NCBI GenBank assembly: GCA_017480035.1
Contig: JAFVBJ010000003.1
Coordinates: 1-64,000 of the forward strand
Origin: Candidatus Saccharimonadota bacterium
GTDB lineage: Bacteria > Patescibacteriota > Saccharimonadia > Saccharimonadales > Saccharimonadaceae
Length of the DNA: 64,000 bases
Direction: 5' to 3'
Shown: positions 2,367 through 31,404 of the stretch, piece by piece
Layout of the letters: the number at the start of each line of letters is the position of its first letter
Position numbering within the stretch: position 1 is the stretch's first letter
Made by a program: the position numbers and the translations under genes
Notes under the pieces: generated by a model
The model's database searches: none
Seen by the model: only the letters and a program-made list of their open reading frames with translations
What the model was told of the DNA's origin: nothing

Positions 2367-5054
2367 CTATTTTTCGGTTTTAGCGGAAGCTTTTTCTCCC
2401 TGTTCGGTCGATTCTTCTTCTTTTTCTTCCGGAAGCACAATTCCAAGCGATGCTACCGTATCACCATCCGCCATTTTCATAATGCGGACACCTTGCGTTG
2501 CACGTCCAAGTGTTGGAATTTCTTTCACAGCCACACGAATTGCTTGCCCCTTCGTTGACATCATAATTACCTCTGATGCCTCTGGGTCGAGCGTATGAAC
2601 AGCGACGATTGTACCAGTTTTCGCCGTGACTGCTGCAACTTTAATTCCAACTCCACCTCTCTTATGTGTCGGGAAGTTCGAAACTAACGTCGCTTTTCCG
2701 TATCCGTTCGCCGAAACTGCAATTAATTTCTGCTTCGGGTCGGTCACGATATCCATTCCAACCACTTCGTCTTTCGGTCGGAGTCTGATACCTCTGACGC
2801 CCATCGCTGAGCGGCCCATCGCTCTCACATCTGCCTCATTAAAGCGAATTGCTTGTCCAGCCGAAGTCGAAATAATCACGTCGTTCTTCCCTGTTGTTGC
2901 CTTCACCCATTTAAGCTCATCTCCTGGATCAAGCTTAATTGAAATCAAGCCATTCGAACGAACATTAAGATATTGCGAAATTGCAGTTTTCTTAATCGTA
3001 CCTTTCTTTGTACACATGAAAAGGAATCCTTCGTCGGTCGAAACGCCAGAATCTTCTTTAATCACCTCTGTCACTCTCTCATCCGGGTGCATATTGAGCA
3101 AGTTTACTGCTGCCGTTCCTTTTGCTTGAAGCGAAGCTTGCGGGATTTCATAAGCTTTCATCCTAAACATTCGCCCTTGGGAAGTAAAGAATAAGAGGAA
3201 ATCGTGGCTCGAAGCTGTAATAATCTGCGAAATCACATCCTCTTCTTTCGTCGTAATTCCTTTCTTGCCTTTTCCACCTCTGTTTTGACGGCGAAAATCG
3301 TTTTGTGAAACACGTTTGACATAGTTCTCTGCTGTCAGCAAAATCACTGACTCTTCCTCTGGGATAAGCTCTTCTTCCGAGAATTTTCCAAGTTCGTGAT
3401 TGAAAATCTTTGACTTTCTCTCGTCGCCATATTTTTCTTTCATCGCAAGAAGTTCTTCTTTAACTACGGCAAGAATCTTCATCTCATCAGCGAGAATTTC
3501 TTCATATTTTGCAATCAAAGCGTGGAGTTCTTTGAGTTCTTCCTCAATCTTATCACGTTCAAGACCTTGGAGACGGCGTAGTTGCATCGCGAGAATCGCG
3601 GCAGCTTGAATTTCTGAAAGACCAAATTTCTTCATGAGTTGCTTATCAGCATCATCATAAGATTCGCGAATCGTCTTAATTACCTCATCAATATTGTCAA
3701 GCGCAATCTTCAAACCTTCGAGGATATGAGCGCGTTCCTTCGCTTTCTTGAGGTCGTACTCTGTTCTTCTACGAATCACTTTCTGACGGTGCTTGATAAA
3801 TTCCGCGAGAATCTCTTTGAGACCCATCACACGAGGTTGAATTCCGTCAACGAGCGCCAAAACATTGTAATGGAACGTCGTCTGAAGGTCAGTCAGCTTA
3901 TAGAGTTGATTCAAAATCTTCTTTGGGAAGGCATCTTTCTTTAGTTCGACTACAACACGAACTTTACCGCGCGCCGATTCATCTCTTGCGTCTGCGATGT
4001 GAGTAATTTTCTTATCTATCACAAGTTGGCGCACCTTTTCAATAAACGCTTCCTTGCTCATACCGTAAGGCACTTCAGAAATCACAATGTTATAGCGACC
4101 ACCTTTTCTTTCTTCGATATTTGCTACTGCACGAATCGTCACCGAACCTTTACCTGTTGCGTAAGCCTGTTTCATCGGTTCACCACCGTAAACTTCCGCA
4201 CCAGTTGGGAAATCTGGGCCTTTAACATGCTTCATCAATTCTTCAAGGGTGATATCTGGATTATCAATCTGAGCTACGGTCGCATCAACCACTTCCGAAA
4301 GATTGTGTGGCGGAATATTTGTCGCCATACCGACCGCAATACCCATCTGACCGTTAAGAAGAATGTTAGGGAGTGCAGCTGGAAGAACTACTGGCTCCTT
4401 CTCTGTACCGTCGAAGTTATCACGAAAATCAACTGTTTCCTTCTCAATATCAGCGAGCAGTTCCGCTCCGACCTTATCCATACGAGCCTCAGTGTAACGT
4501 GAAGCAGCTGGCTCATCACCATCCATCGAACCGAAGTTACCTTGACCTTCGACGAGAGTATATCTCATCTTCCAAGGTTGTGCGAGGTTCACCATCGCAT
4601 CATAAATCGACGAATCACCGTGCGGGTGGTATTTACCCATCACTTCACCGACGATACGTGCCGATTTTACTGTTGCGTGTGGAGCTTTCCAGCCATTCTT
4701 CTGCATCGCATAAAGAATGCGGCGGTTAACAGGCTTAAGGCCATCACGCACATCTGGGAGTGCACGATCGATAATCACCGACATTGAGTAACGGATGAAC
4801 GAATCTTCCATCACGTTCTCAACTGTGAGCTCTTCTACGCCATCTGCCCCCTCAGTTGCGGTCAAACCGCCTACTTTTACGATTTCACCCTCATTAGCGT
4901 CAGAATCGCTCTCTGTGGCTTCATGGGTGTTTTCTTCACGGGTTCCACCTTTAGTAAACGTCTCATCTACCCCTTTATCGTCCGCGCTATCTGGAACTCC
5001 GGTGTTCTTCGAAACGTTTTTCTCATCTTCTGGGTTTTCTGATTTTTTCACCAT
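2367..5054 (-). CDS. gyrA: DNA gyrase subunit A
   Basis: GyrA cuts and rejoins DNA in the A2B2 gyrase that introduces negative supercoils. The 895-residue product carries the winged-helix breakage region ([18 protein letters not shown]) and the [10 protein letters not shown] segment with the catalytic tyrosine. The long coiled-coil region and the C-terminal beta-pinwheel follow. A GyrA-box-like QNRGGKG is present, which favours gyrase over topoisomerase IV. An acidic N-terminal extension of about 78 residues precedes the conserved core and is unusual. The gene follows gyrB after 13 bases and is surely co-transcribed. Confidence 0.97.
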
Positions 5055-5067
5055 AGTCTATCCTTTC

Positions 5068-7047
5068 CTAGAAGTCCAAATCATCAAGGTCAACACTTGC
5101 TGCTCTTGATTGAATGAAGTTTTTACGCATTTCGACCTCTTGACCCATCAATTTGGTAAAGATTGCGTCTGCTTTTTCAGCATCTTCAATATTAACTCTA
5201 ATAATCGTTCTATTCTCTGGATTCATCGTTGTTTCCCAGAGTTGCGCCGCATCCATCTCGCCAAGACCTTTGAAGCGCTGTTGTGCAGTATATCCAGCCT
5301 GTTTGAAGCGTTCGTCTTCCTCATTTACTTTAGTCCCAGCCGCTTTTTTCTCATTTATTCGCTTCGTCAGCGTCGCCTCAAGCGCATCTTCATTATAGAT
5401 ATATTCAATCTTGCGCCCATTTCCAGTTCCCTTAATTAACCCGAAAAGTGGCGGTTTTGCAAGATAAACGTGGCCTTCTTTGATCAGTTCTGGCATATAT
5501 CTAAAGAAGAATGTCAAAAGAAGTGTCGAAATGTGTGCACCATCGACATCGGCATCTGTCATAAACACGATTTTATCGTACCTAAGCCCATTAATATCAA
5601 ATTGGTCGCCAATCCCTGTTCCAAGCGCCTTAATAAGAGAGACAATCTCGGCATTTGCATACATCTTATCAAGCCTTGCTCTCTCCGTATTAAGCACTTT
5701 ACCGCGAAGTGGCAAAATTGCTTGAATTGACGAATCGCGCCCCTCTTTTGCAGAACCTGCAGCGGAGTTACCCTCTACAATAAAGAGTTCACAGTTATCA
5801 CGAGATTTAGAACTACAATCAGCGAGCTTCGACGGCAAATTCAACCCATCAAACGCACCCTTGCGGATAACATTATCACGCGCCGCACGTGCCGCTTTGC
5901 GAGCACGAGCCGCAAGCGTTGCTTTTTGAACAATTTTCTTCGCAATTGCCGGATTTTCCTCAAGGTAGTAGCCAAAATATTCGCTCATTACCTTGTCGAC
6001 ATAGCCACGCACCTCTGGATTTCCGAGTTTATTCTTCGTTTGTCCTTCAAATTCCGGATTTGGCAACTTAACAGAGATAACTGCAACGAGACCCTCCTTT
6101 ATATCGTCCCCAGTCAGATTATCTTCTTTCTCTTTCAAGAGATTATTTTTACGAGCATAATCATTAATCACGCGGTTAAGGGCCGTTCTGAAACCAACTA
6201 CGTGCGTGCCACCATCAGGAGTCAACACGTTGTTTGCAAATGGTTTCATCGTCTCTGCGAAAGTATCATTATATTGTACTGCGATTTCAACTTCAGAATC
6301 TTCAATCTGTTTATCAACATAGAAAATACTGTCCGCGAGCACCTCTTTACCGTTATTAAGACGTTTCACATAGCTCGAGATACCACCTTCGAAATAAAAG
6401 CTCTCTCTCGCCCCTGTTCTTTCGTCTGAAACTTCAATCAAAATTCCTTTCGTCAGATATGCTTGGTGTCTTGCATAGTGCGAAACCCAATCATAATCAA
6501 AGGTCGTCGTCTCTTTAAAGATTGTCGGATCTGGATAGAATGTAATGCTTGTTCCCTGTTTTTGTGTTTTTCCTTGTATTTGCAAGTCTGAGGTCGGCTT
6601 ACCAGTATCAAATTCAATATGATGAATTTTTCCATCCCTATAAACTTCTGCCACCATGTGCGTCGAAAGTGCGTTCACCACCGACGAACCCACGCCGTGA
6701 AGACCAGATGAGACTTTATATCCGCCTCCACCGAACTTACCTCCAGCGTGCAACACCGTGAGTACCGTCTCAAGCGTCGACTTATGAGTTTTCGGGTGTA
6801 AATCTACCGGAATACCACGTCCGTTATCATCTACTCTCACACCCCCATCACTCAGCAGTGTGATTGATACTTTACTCGCATAACCCGCAATCGCTTCATC
6901 GATGGAGTTATCCGCAATCTCTTTAATCAAGTGATGGAGACCGTCATAACCTGTTGATCCGATGTACATACCAGGACGGACACGAACCGGCTCAAGACCT
7001 TCAAGCACCTGAATCTCAGAGCTGTCATACTCTTCTTTCTTTGCCAT
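5068..7047 (-). CDS. gyrB: DNA gyrase subunit B
   Basis: GyrB is the ATPase and TOPRIM half of gyrase. The 659-residue product has the GHKL ATP-binding motifs (EIADNSIDEA, DNGRGIPV, GLHGVGSSVVNALS). It also has the TOPRIM/Mg-binding motifs (EGNSAAGSAKEGRD, DADVDGAHI) and the closing GEMDAAQLWETTMNPENR segment. The length is typical of the short GyrB class without the E. coli insertion. The start ATG has an AAGG Shine-Dalgarno. A strong promoter lies at 7123-7151. Confidence 0.97.
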   Translation of the reverse strand: MAKKEEYDSSEIQVLEGLEPVRVRPGMYIGSTGYDGLHHLIKEIADNSIDEAIAGYASKVSITLLSDGGVRVDDNGRGIPVDLHPKTHKSTLETVLTVLHAGGKFGGGGYKVSSGLHGVGSSVVNALSTHMVAEVYRDGKIHHIEFDTGKPTSDLQIQGKTQKQGTSITFYPDPTIFKETTTFDYDWVSHYARHQAYLTKGILIEVSDERTGARESFYFEGGISSYVKRLNNGKEVLADSIFYVDKQIEDSEVEIAVQYNDTFAETMKPFANNVLTPDGGTHVVGFRTALNRVINDYARKNNLLKEKEDNLTGDDIKEGLVAVISVKLPNPEFEGQTKNKLGNPEVRGYVDKVMSEYFGYYLEENPAIAKKIVQKATLAARARKAARAARDNVIRKGAFDGLNLPSKLADCSSKSRDNCELFIVEGNSAAGSAKEGRDSSIQAILPLRGKVLNTERARLDKMYANAEIVSLIKALGTGIGDQFDINGLRYDKIVFMTDADVDGAHISTLLLTFFFRYMPELIKEGHVYLAKPPLFGLIKGTGNGRKIEYIYNEDALEATLTKRINEKKAAGTKVNEEDERFKQAGYTAQQRFKGLGEMDAAQLWETTMNPENRTIIRVNIEDAEKADAIFTKLMGQEVEMRKNFIQSRAASVDLDDLDF

Positions 7048-27785: not shown

Positions 27786-27990
27786 TTATCTCTCTCCGGC
27801 AACGTGAACAATGGCTCCGTCAACAATCAGGGCAGCAACGGCAACTACTGGTCCTCTACGGTCAACAATGCTAACAACGCGTACAACCTGAACCTAAATA
27901 GCTCAAATGTCAACCCAGCAAACAACAACAATAAGAACAACGGGAACTCTGTGCGTTGTGTCGCGCAGTAGTCTCCGGCTCCCCTCCCAG
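27786..27990 (+). repeat. DGR template repeat (TR)
   Basis: This 205-bp stretch aligns without gaps to the variable repeat in the target gene (complement of 29976-30180). They differ at 29 positions, all A in this copy (16 A to T, 10 A to G, 3 A to C), out of 58 A between 27796 and 27955. The last 35 bases, covering the target stop codon and a GC-rich tail, are identical. Read in the target frame it has 23 Asn (AAY) codons, the code that reaches most amino acids and never a stop. It lies 33 bases beyond the end of the RT gene and opposite in orientation to RT and target. Confidence 0.96.
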
Positions 27991-28023
27991 CACCTCAATC
28001 CCCCCAAAAAAATCCACTAAAAC

Positions 28024-29130
28024 CTAAAATCTATACTCAAACCCCGCTAAATCAAACATTTTCTTGCAAATTTTCTTTCCATTCACATTTTTCATATATC
28101 CAAGATACGAAATCATCGAATCATCATCAAGAAATCCCATCGTATATTCCATCGCCGCGTGATGAAAATTATTTTTAAACCTTCTTCCCGGCACAATCAT
28201 ATACGGATAAACCACCATCCCGAGAAACGGCGTCCCGTGCGACACTTCTTGAATATACCGCTTCCTCGGATGCAGCGTCAGCCCAATCGAAATCAAAAAT
28301 TCCGAAATCTTCGGCACATCCGAAAGCGCCCTCTTAAATTCTTCCTCCGTCACCACAAGATAAAAATCATCCACATATCTCCCATAATGCTTCCACCCGA
28401 GCTCAAACGTCACAAATCTATCAAGTTGGTCGAGATAAATATTCGAAACCAGCTGCGACGACAAATTCCCAATCACAATTCCCTGCCCCGGTGGCTGGCA
28501 AAACAAACTCTTGTTGTCCGGCAGCCCATCCCACTCTTTCATCGACCCCCGAATCCTCACTCCTTTCGTCGGGTCATCAAAAATCACTTCCGCCCAAAGT
28601 CCTCGCACCAAATTTTTCAGCCATTCGTGCTTCGCGTCGTATTGCCGCTCAAGCCCCCAACACACCCGTTCAAAAATCCGCTTTCTCGAAAGACTCATGA
28701 AATACCCCTGAATATCAAATTTCAGAACATACGCTTTTCTCGTCCCGTTTCTCGAAACCTGTCGGACATGTTTTTGCATCCGCTTCACTCCGAACAATGT
28801 GCCCTTCCCCACTCTACACGAATACGAATCGTAAATAAATCTCTCGTCCCACCACTTCGCATTTTGATTATAGAGAAAATGGTGCACCACCCTGTCCCGA
28901 AACGGTGCCGCAAAAATCTCCCGCATCACCGGGTCATAGATAATAAACGCGATTCCCCGCCCCGGTTTATATCTGTGATTAATAATATCATCTCTAAGCA
29001 TCACGAGATTTTGCATCGCGTTTAGTTCAAAAGTATGCTCGTCACTCGTCCCGCGCTTATTTTTCCGCGCCTCGAGATACGCTATATATAGTTCGTGCAG
29101 CAGCCACTCGCCTAAATCTTTGCCTTGCAC
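28024..29130 (-). CDS. DGR reverse transcriptase
   Basis: The enzyme copies template RNA with errors at adenines and so rewrites the variable repeat. The 368-residue product has catalytic motif KFDIQGYF (Asp139), the DGR-type motif QGIVIGNLSSQ (~216-226, SQ where retroviral-type RTs differ) and YVDDFYLVV (~252-260), then a short thumb. There is no maturase or RNase H domain, as usual for this class. It overlaps the accessory gene by 19 bases. The RT gene runs toward the template repeat. Confidence 0.95.
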   Translation of the reverse strand: MQGKDLGEWLLHELYIAYLEARKNKRGTSDEHTFELNAMQNLVMLRDDIINHRYKPGRGIAFIIYDPVMREIFAAPFRDRVVHHFLYNQNAKWWDERFIYDSYSCRVGKGTLFGVKRMQKHVRQVSRNGTRKAYVLKFDIQGYFMSLSRKRIFERVCWGLERQYDAKHEWLKNLVRGLWAEVIFDDPTKGVRIRGSMKEWDGLPDNKSLFCQPPGQGIVIGNLSSQLVSNIYLDQLDRFVTFELGWKHYGRYVDDFYLVVTEEEFKRALSDVPKISEFLISIGLTLHPRKRYIQEVSHGTPFLGMVVYPYMIVPGRRFKNNFHHAAMEYTMGFLDDDSMISYLGYMKNVNGKKICKKMFDLAGFEYRF

Positions 29131-29936
29131 GCTGAAAGTTCTTTCCTGACTTTTTCAATCGCTCGAAGTATCGAATACGTCCTCTCCAGCGGCATCAGCC
29201 TCAGTTCCGACACGTTTATCATCTGCGCCGTCATATAGTCGAGCTCCGTTTCCATACTCTCCAGATATTTCTTCATCGCCTCTTTCGACTTACTCGCGAG
29301 ACTATATTCACGCACCAATTTCACCGCTCTTATCGTAATCTCATCCGTAACGGTTCTCCTTCCGACCGGCTCAACTATCCGTATCGCAAAATACGTTTTC
29401 TTTAAAAGCTCCCTGAGCATCATAAAAAGCACCGGATGAATTTCCTCCGGCATCATAATTTTATTTACTTTCGCATACTCGAGCGCCTTCGCCTTCTTCA
29501 TATTCTCAATTTCCGAAGGCAAATACTTTTTCCCGAGGTTATAGATTCGATATTCCGGCTTTATCTCGAGTGGATTGATACTGTTGGCTTCGAGTCTTGT
29601 CTCAAGCATGTCAATGTTTCGGATATTCACCACCCCATCCTCAGATTTGAAATCAAAATCCGAATCTTGGACGAGCTTCGAACCCATTCCAATTCTTTTC
29701 GCAATTTCACAGTGGAAAATGATTGCCGAATTGCCAATCATTTTCCACCAATCCCCATTGTTGTGAATGACAAACAGTTTCGAATAGTTTTTCTTCTCTT
29801 TCTCGAGCGCAAACATCTTCAATTTGAGATACACCGCTTTCTGTTGGTCGCCAATCTTAGCGGCTTTCGTGCGAGCAACTCTGGTCGACTTTTTCGCCAT
29901 TTCATTTGCTGTCATTTTCAGTTCACTTTCTTTCAT
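29112..29936 (-). CDS. DGR accessory protein: MutS-I-like N-terminus plus Avd-like helical bundle
   Basis: DGR reverse transcriptases need an accessory protein (Avd in phage BPP-1, about 125 residues, a four-helix bundle). This product has 274 residues. The C-terminal ~120 residues (LRELLKKTYFAIRIVEPVG to the end) look like an all-helical bundle of Avd size. Residues ~36-90 (YSKLFVIHNNGDWWKMIGNSA, then an Ala-rich helix) resemble the MutS mismatch-recognition domain I pattern GDFYE..G.DA..A. MutS-like accessory proteins have been reported for some DGRs; a fusion of both parts is inferred. It lies between target and RT on the same strand. Confidence 0.7.
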   Translation of the reverse strand: MKESELKMTANEMAKKSTRVARTKAAKIGDQQKAVYLKLKMFALEKEKKNYSKLFVIHNNGDWWKMIGNSAIIFHCEIAKRIGMGSKLVQDSDFDFKSEDGVVNIRNIDMLETRLEANSINPLEIKPEYRIYNLGKKYLPSEIENMKKAKALEYAKVNKIMMPEEIHPVLFMMLRELLKKTYFAIRIVEPVGRRTVTDEITIRAVKLVREYSLASKSKEAMKKYLESMETELDYMTAQMINVSELRLMPLERTYSILRAIEKVRKELSACKAKI

Positions 29937-29975
29937 TCAACTTTATTTCGCCCACACGTTTTGAGCTCAGAGGTT

Positions 29976-30180
29976 CTGGGAGGGGAGCCGGAGACTACTG
30001 CGCGACACAACGCACAGAGAACCCGTGGAACTTATCGTTGAGGTTCGCTGGGTAGACATTCGAGCTAAGTAGGTACAGGTAGTACGCGACGCTAGCACTG
30101 CTGACCGTAGAGGACCAGTAGAAGCCGTAGCCGCCCTGATTGCCGACGGAGCCATAGTACACGTAGCCGGAGAGAGATAA
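29976..30180 (-). repeat. DGR variable repeat (VR)
   Basis: This is the diversified copy of the template, covering the last 61 codons, the stop and 19 bases of 3' flank of the target gene. Relative to the template 19 of 23 Asn codons have changed (to Tyr, Phe, Ser, Leu, Gly, Val, Asp, His), one AGC became GGC and two changes are silent. The invariant end GTCTCCGGCTCCCCTCCCAG is the probable initiation-of-homing (IMH) region. Confidence 0.96.
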
Positions 30181-31227
30181 GTTTGGAATACCTTGCATTA
30201 ATGCAGACGAGTTGTAGTTATTGTAAAGGGTCTGGAACTCGCCGGAAGAACCGCCAGTTGGAAGCCTCCAACCTTTCGGGCAGATATCACTTGAAGCGTT
30301 GCCAGAAGTCAAGCTACTTCCGCCGGTTCCAGCTGTTGCAGTATAGAATGTATAGTAACCGCCATATGTAGAGTCCACATATGCGTTATTGGTATCATAA
30401 GCGTTGAATCCAGAAACTGATGATGCTGGAATCGTGAAGTCTGAAGAAACGTTAGAATCGGAGCTGGTGATGGTCTTATTCGCGATTCTGAGATTCTCTG
30501 TCATCCAAACATTTCCGTCTGCAAGCTTCTTAACGGTATAAGTGTTCCCGTCACGTTCATCTTCAAGCTCGATTGAATCGCCAACGTTCGTAAGCGTAGA
30601 TTTATCGAAGGTTTGCATCGTCAAAGTAACTGGCGGCTCATGCGCAATCACCGAGAAAATCACGCTTTTCGCATAAGTTCCGGCCTTGAGTGTAGAATTA
30701 ACTTTTGCGCCGATATGAACAACATTAGTTTTCTCTGCCGTAGATGGAAAATGATCAAGATTCCTAAGTGTCACTTGATTGCTAAGTGCTGGGATTTTGA
30801 GATAATCCGTCCCGTCGGTCGAATATCCCCATTTATTCGCACCCATCGTCGAACTCGTCACGCTTCCCGAAAAATCTGATGCGATGACATCCGTAATCGA
30901 AGAATCTGTGTTCTCCATATCCGTATCATTGTCGATAGACGAGAAATAGAGTTCGTATCCGCCGGTGCTGTTCGTGCTAACAGTCGCAGTCACCGTCCCA
31001 GAATCAAAAACACCTTCTGGCGTTGGAATGTCATATGTCAGCGCAAGGTTCTCCGTATCAAGCGTCACCGATGCCACCGGATTCACCACCGCCGAAACTT
31101 TTGTTTCCGCTGAATCCGCCGCGTTGCTTTTTACTATCGGTGAGAAAAACGAGAACGTTATCGCCCCAAGCATTGTGAACGCCAAAAAGACGCCCGCCGC
31201 TTTCATTTTTTCCGCATTTTTTGCCAT
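29995..31227 (-). CDS. DGR target: secreted protein with Fib_succ_major (lectin-like) C-terminal domain
   Basis: The product (410 residues from this start) has a signal peptide (hydrophobic VFLAFTMLGAITFSFFSP, then SNAA). A beta-rich domain of about 180 residues follows. The C-terminal domain has the FISUMP signature: VWMTENL, CPKGWRLPTGGSSGEF, YWSSTV and GFSVRCV. The variable residues lie between GYVY and GFSV and would form the ligand-binding face. An earlier ATG at 31257 gives ten more residues. The ATG at 31227 has a GGAGG Shine-Dalgarno and is preferred. Display on the surface and binding of variable ligands (host cell, phage or mucin) are inferred. Confidence 0.93.
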   Translation of the reverse strand: MAKNAEKMKAAGVFLAFTMLGAITFSFFSPIVKSNAADSAETKVSAVVNPVASVTLDTENLALTYDIPTPEGVFDSGTVTATVSTNSTGGYELYFSSIDNDTDMENTDSSITDVIASDFSGSVTSSTMGANKWGYSTDGTDYLKIPALSNQVTLRNLDHFPSTAEKTNVVHIGAKVNSTLKAGTYAKSVIFSVIAHEPPVTLTMQTFDKSTLTNVGDSIELEDERDGNTYTVKKLADGNVWMTENLRIANKTITSSDSNVSSDFTIPASSVSGFNAYDTNNAYVDSTYGGYYTFYTATAGTGGSSLTSGNASSDICPKGWRLPTGGSSGEFQTLYNNYNSSALMQGIPNLSLSGYVYYGSVGNQGGYGFYWSSTVSSASVAYYLYLLSSNVYPANLNDKFHGFSVRCVAQ

Positions 31228-31404
31228 CACTCCTCCATCAACCATAACCTTTTTCATTGTTTTAATGTTTTCCTTTTATTTATCGTTCCTTAACGGTCAG
31301 TTTGTAGGGGCCTTTAAACCAACTAATTTTCAAGAGAGATGAAAATTTTTTTGTTTTTAGGATAAAAGTATACGCAAACGCAATCAAACTCCTTATAAAA
31401 ACGC

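Follow-up and report, generated by a model that had tools for sequence, protein, structure and literature searches.

The 64,000-nucleotide stretch of DNA that was analyzed here (the window) stems from the Saccharibacteria, tiny bacteria of the gut, and contains a DGR cassette that, judged by its sequence, is apparently active (Table 1). The target gene with its variable repeat (VR) is followed by an accessory gene, the reverse transcriptase (RT) gene and then, on the opposite strand, the template repeat (TR). The accessory and RT open reading frames (ORFs) share 19 bases of overlap, and the RT matches the PHROG RT family with an E-value of 4e-76. TR and VR form a 211-base repeat with 30 differences, 29 of which fall on TR adenines (binomial P about 1e-14). 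Between 27786 and 28024, the TR is convergent to the RT gene. In some relatives, the TR even overlaps the end of RT, so that the template RNA would be antisense to the rt mRNA. The source genome belongs to a Saccharibacterial genus, with Candidatus Nanosyncoccus alces and ruminant-gut MAGs as named relatives, and holds a further DGR of this type on another contig. The PADLOC defence families returned no match to the accessory protein.

Table 1. Features of the DGR cassette and of its accessory protein (window coordinates)
Feature	Position	Strand	Basis or remark
Template repeat (TR)	27786..27996	plus	strand opposite RT, 28 bases past RT stop
DGR reverse transcriptase	28024..29130	minus	YVDD and IGNLSSQ motifs
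Accessory ORF (putative MutS-I-like + Avd fusion)	29112..29936	minus	274 aa
N-terminal half of long basic helix (model helix 2-47), residues 1-29	29850..29936	minus	low conservation
Predicted MutS domain I-like alpha/beta domain, residues 30-137	29526..29849	minus	AlphaFold, VIA-align, hhalign
W63-W64-K65, aligned with E. coli MutS Phe36-x-Glu38	29742..29750	minus	hhalign, homologue alignment
D91-x-D93, near-invariant	29658..29666	minus	homologue alignment
Linker helix between domains, residues 138-163	29448..29525	minus	AlphaFold model
Avd four-helix bundle, residues 164-274	29115..29447	minus	AlphaFold and profile
Variable repeat (VR)	29970..30180	minus	3' end of target gene and IMH-like tail
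Target gene	29995..31257	minus	Fib_succ_major/FISUMP-type C-terminal domain

With 274 aa, the accessory protein is about twice as long as the stand-alone Avds of 112-154 aa that lie beside related RTs, as the first-pass annotation had noted. We also confirmed its prediction that the C-terminal part is all-helical and Avd-like. In the AlphaFold model of the whole protein (pLDDT 91.7), residues 164-274 form a four-helix bundle that superimposes on 2gsc (Z 17.4, rmsd 1.6, 110 residues aligned), on 8ub7, the Avd of a DGR RNP (Z 14.5, rmsd 1.8 over 106 residues), and on 4dwl, the Avd of BPP-1 (Z 14.0, rmsd 1.7 over 104 residues). Folds of the bAvd/S23 type head the list of structures, and viral Avd-like models match too. 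Because helical bundles match easily, with a designed one scoring Z 13.4 against the same residues, the sequence evidence for Avd weighs more. The family profile matches stand-alone Avds in four other Patescibacteria (E 3e-9 to 5e-7), where an RT adjoins at three of the examined loci, as well as stand-alone Avds in 16 of 80 IMG/VR relatives. For the stand-alone Avds that adjoin RTs in other Patescibacteria and in IMG/VR contigs, E runs from 3e-9 to 3e-8. The query alone stays below the curated cut-offs of bAvd and DivGenRetAVD (12.5 of 40 bits and 16.6 of 80 bits), since it is too divergent for both models, and the whole-family profile retrieved no Avd entry from the PDB. Taken together, these data firmly identify residues 164-274 as an Avd four-helix bundle. 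Searching the PDB with the whole protein by phmmer gave chance matches only. Weak matches to Pfam DUF1132 and NCBIfam PspA were not family-wide, and we dismissed these identities.

For the N-terminal third, the first-pass annotation had inferred a MutS domain I from the pattern GDWWK..G.SA..A. Residues 61-71 do read GDWWKMIGNSA; the last alanine of the pattern is not literal, the next one being residue 79. This pattern alone would not beat chance, and the inference draws its support instead from residue conservation, profile-profile comparison and predicted fold. A fold search with the whole model was filled with helical bundles, and residues 30-137 were then predicted and searched alone. From 40 homologues this segment was modeled with a pLDDT of 90 and the order H-E-E-H-E-H-E-E. 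VIA-align matched it to more than 20 MutS/MSH chains with Z 4.6-6.4 and 80-88 aligned residues, covering residues about 8-95 of MutS/MSH; the best of these matches has a Z of 6.4 and an rmsd of 4.0 over 82 residues. The annotation had staked its reading on the fold of residues 30-100 being related to MutS domain I, and many MutS/MSH chains are indeed among the best matches. However, GFRP matches residues 30-137 with the same Z of 6.4 (rmsd 2.5 over 75 residues), so that the structural match to MutS is not decisive. Foldseek gave no significant E-value for this segment, and MutS lay outside its own top 50.

Profile-profile comparison points in the same direction as VIA-align. Aligned by hhalign with MutS_I of Patescibacteria and phages, the domain reaches P 9e-4 (7e-5 in the reverse direction) and scores above all 100 column shuffles. 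The alignment is collinear over the domain and sets W63-W64-K65 on Phe36-Tyr37-Glu38 of MutS. HMM-to-sequence searches (Pfam, PDB sequences, and the MutS_I HMM against 93 homologues) found nothing significant for the N domain: Pfam MutS_I (PF01624) does not match the query even at E<1, and matches 1 of 31 homologues with E 0.041 at a permissive threshold only. Weak PF01624 matches at two loci (L032 and L035) were rejected as MSLs, as they sit in glycoside-hydrolase-like proteins. The N domain is basic, with a median pI of 9.3. Taken together, residues ~30-137 form a separate alpha/beta domain that probably has a MutS domain I-like fold, and common descent with MutS domain I is likely, if unproven. 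Of the architecture originally proposed, the Avd part is therefore solid and the MutS domain I-like fold probable, with GFRP tied on Z.

Binding by MutS requires Phe36, which stacks on the mismatched base, and a MutS with the exchange E38Q no longer tells matched from mismatched DNA (PMC3848065; also PMC12292046). Among 91 homologues of the accessory protein, the position of Phe36 is held by W in 51, F in 32, Y in 6 and M in 2 sequences, which keeps an aromatic residue in 89. At the position of Glu38, we found K in 66, E in 6, N in 5 and R in 4 sequences (Lys/Arg in 70 of 91). The Phe-x-Glu motif of MutS1 is thus reduced to its aromatic residue, with Glu mostly replaced by Lys. This pattern suggests that binding may persist, while the choice of mismatches probably does not. 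The N domain may thus bind nucleic acid via a stacking aromatic. Six polar residues (K40, E47, N50, S70, D91 and D93) are 96-100% conserved in the same 91 homologues, at a family identity of about 20-30%, and are kept more strictly than the MutS-like motif. This near-invariant set (window 29658-29819, minus strand) has no counterpart in MutS; its conservation would be compatible with an active or binding site.

The clamp and ATPase domains (IV, V) of MutS are absent from the 274-aa protein, the remainder of which is the Avd bundle. Searches of 60 genomes from the order found neither MutS nor MutL above the cut-offs, so that a sensor would lack a canonical repair pathway to report to. Across the phylum, 60 of 286 genomes contain MutS above the cut-off.

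Homologues of the accessory protein occur in at least one copy, and often in two to four, in 95 of 174 genomes of the genus, which is apparently Ca. Nanosyncoccus. Many of the sequences stem from MAGs, and two loci that bear other taxon labels (L178 and L182) are probably misbinned. An RT adjoins the homologue at all 64 tested loci. Beside 76 of the 80 RTs that are nearest in GTDB genomes, a gene matches both the N- and the C-terminal profile; of the other four, one has the gene split in two ORFs, two have a match to the N profile alone, and one, an RT at a contig start, has neither match. An additional ORF recognized by the Avd profile was seen at none of the 76 fused loci: in this clade, the fused gene replaces stand-alone Avd. 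In 62 related loci, TR adenines take 93% of 1409 TR/VR mismatches.

Several members deviate from this architecture. At two loci (L115 at ~4316, G047; L126 at ~4509, G052), the homologue is split in two ORFs at the domain border by a poly-C tract of 8 and 11 C, respectively. The split may reflect phase-variable switching of the accessory gene or, alternatively, faulty assembly. Three loci (L019, L023 and L025) code for an extra N-terminal helix-turn-helix region, as indicated by HTH_3 matches in 3 of 31 members and by the extension of the alignment. A phage origin was considered but found no support, as none of 80 IMG/VR relatives has the N domain and the single MutS_I genes of gut phages have no DGR RT in the stretches examined. 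In Bacteroides phage B124-14, MutS domain I makes up a small protein of its own, of 81 aa (L289:2543-2788), and three further gut phage loci (L291-L293) contain it alone or within other ORFs.

The fused systems cluster in a single group of the RT tree (96/82); by this measure, the fusion has one origin. Fused genes are also present in two further genera (L328 and L336). The sister of the fused group is a Saccharimonadia clade (100/100 for the union; L329, L330, L332-L335; G613, G616, G678, G518). Its DGRs contain target and RT, and the TR, where detected, on the RT strand; no recognizable Avd, N domain or accessory gene lies beside the RT. Avd-bearing relatives fall outside both groups. A TR was detected at 62 fused loci, and at 59 of these it lies downstream of RT and on the other strand. 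All 67 IMG/VR relatives carry the TR on the RT strand, and it is inverted in none of them. Exceptions are L336 (G555), where a fused gene is combined with a TR on the RT strand, and L343 and L344, two distant loci whose entire Avd cassette is on the strand opposite RT. The link between fusion and TR inversion is essentially close to one evolutionary event. At L336, TR and VR have swapped places (3859-4121 and 6439-6698), with the TR now upstream, on the strand of RT, and the target downstream, on the opposite one.

A previous study on BPP-1 has shown that a structured spacer 3' of the TR recruits RT-Avd (PMC12875486). At the fused loci, a median of about 45 bases separates the TR from the end of RT, which follows in antisense orientation. 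We looked for a conserved RNA structure 3' of the TR and found none, and the 3' flank of the TR in the window has no structure (z 0.08). An intrinsic terminator lies 6-40 nt past the TR end in 9 of 60 loci, compared with 1 expected.

How may this bipartite protein work? We surmise, with a confidence just short of an even chance, that the accessory protein of the Saccharibacterial DGR lineage consists of a MutS domain I-like module that binds nucleic acid and, following it, an Avd bundle. The C-terminal part would do the job of Avd: as an oligomeric scaffold, it would hold RT and template RNA, and cDNA synthesis would depend on it. The N domains, carried on long basic helices, would surround this scaffold and insert their conserved aromatic into distorted or flexible duplex. 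By analogy to MutS, the N domain probably grips nucleic acid for the DGR machinery rather than proof-reading it, and the Lys in place of Glu38 implies that it should bind without strict mismatch discrimination. The most likely substrate would be the template RNA or the cDNA:RNA hybrid, either during RNP assembly or during strand hand-over. Such a grip may compensate for a template RNA that in the window is transcribed convergently and without a structured 3' spacer. A farther-reaching version, which we consider rather unlikely as a whole, is that a wedge derived from MutS domain I was fused once to Avd and turned from recognizing DNA mismatches to reading template RNA or RNA:cDNA hybrid as part of the RNP, which would have let the template RNA uncouple from the RT transcript and invert. 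Against a wedge mechanism in general, the structural Z of about 6 is modest and is tied by GFRP, a protein-protein regulator; the HMM-to-sequence searches do not tie the N domain to MutS; the link of fusion with TR inversion amounts to about one event and has L336 as an outlier; and the invariant polar set has no place in such a mechanism.

The tie with GFRP can also be taken to mean that the likeness to MutS is resemblance only, and that the N domain is a small alpha/beta docking platform for proteins, which recruits a host factor or oligomerizes the RNP. The silence of the HMM-to-sequence searches and the insignificant Foldseek E-values would agree with this. In contrast, GFRP aligns over 74-76 residues without helix 1, whereas the MutS alignments include this helix; many independent MutS/MSH entries appear among the structure matches, the hhalign alignment is collinear and sets WWK on the FYE motif, and the domain is basic. 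We therefore regard a mere docking role as unlikely. A site formed by the six polar residues would make the N domain an enzyme, for example one that cleaves nucleic acid in a metal-dependent manner and thereby aids cDNA entry at the target. Their strict conservation in so divergent a family, above that of the MutS-like motif, fits this idea; yet MutS domain I has no catalytic role and no nuclease family was matched, which leaves enzymatic activity the least probable of these explanations.

The first-pass annotation had suggested a mismatch-sensing module that controls homing or heteroduplex resolution. In such a model, the N domain would detect A-to-N mismatches in the cDNA:VR heteroduplex. 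DGR homing does create a mismatched heteroduplex, and the MutS-I-like fold, the profile match and the conserved stacking aromatic speak for a sensor. However, the residue on which discrimination depends in MutS (PMC3848065) is Lys in most homologues and Glu in only 6 of 91, the protein has no clamp or ATPase domain, and MutS and MutL were not found in the 60 relatives. These observations speak against the proposed control function, and we consider mismatch sensing quite unlikely. Handling of RNA or hybrid is favored over it because of the exchange of Glu for Lys, the absence of MutS and MutL, and the altered template RNA.

The fused protein shares with Avd (bAvd, PF22296 / NF033474; PDB 4dwl, 8ub7) the four-helix bundle, the position beside a DGR RT and the role of sole Avd-like gene of the cassette. 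It differs from Avd by its length, by scores under the curated cut-offs, and by an extra N-terminal domain with a long N-terminal helix. With MutS domain I (PF01624, MutS1/MSH6), it shares the order of secondary structures and the aromatic at the Phe36 position, but has Lys for Glu38, a longer helix 1, no domains II-V and about 17% identity. MSL (MutS-like, PF01624) has been listed as a class of DGR accessory proteins, citing Wu et al. 2018 (PMC10053308). MSL and the fused protein have in common the accessory role next to a DGR RT and, probably, a MutS domain I-like part; PF01624 is not recognized in the query. A MutS-like DGR accessory is thus already known. Inverted DGRs of another type, with cassette parts on opposite strands, were described in 2012 (DiGReF, PMC3521204). 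In those systems, the inverted part is RT alone, relative to TR, VR and target; in the fused systems, it is the TR alone that runs against VR/target, accessory gene and RT, and this in a whole clade. The literature covered, to which the founding MSL account of Wu et al. 2018 does not belong, contained no description of the Avd fusion or of its link to TR inversion.

Across a whole DGR clade, Avd has given way to a fusion of Avd with a MutS-like module, and neither MutS nor MutL is detectable in the hosts. The fused clade with its template RNA on the other strand and the sister clade without recognizable Avd provide natural comparisons. These comparisons make it testable which steps of DGR cDNA (assembly, protection, insertion) are served by Avd, by the RNA scaffold and by mismatch handling, respectively. 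If true, an RNA-reading wedge derived from MutS would mean that DGR mutagenesis complexes can be built on a novel plan.
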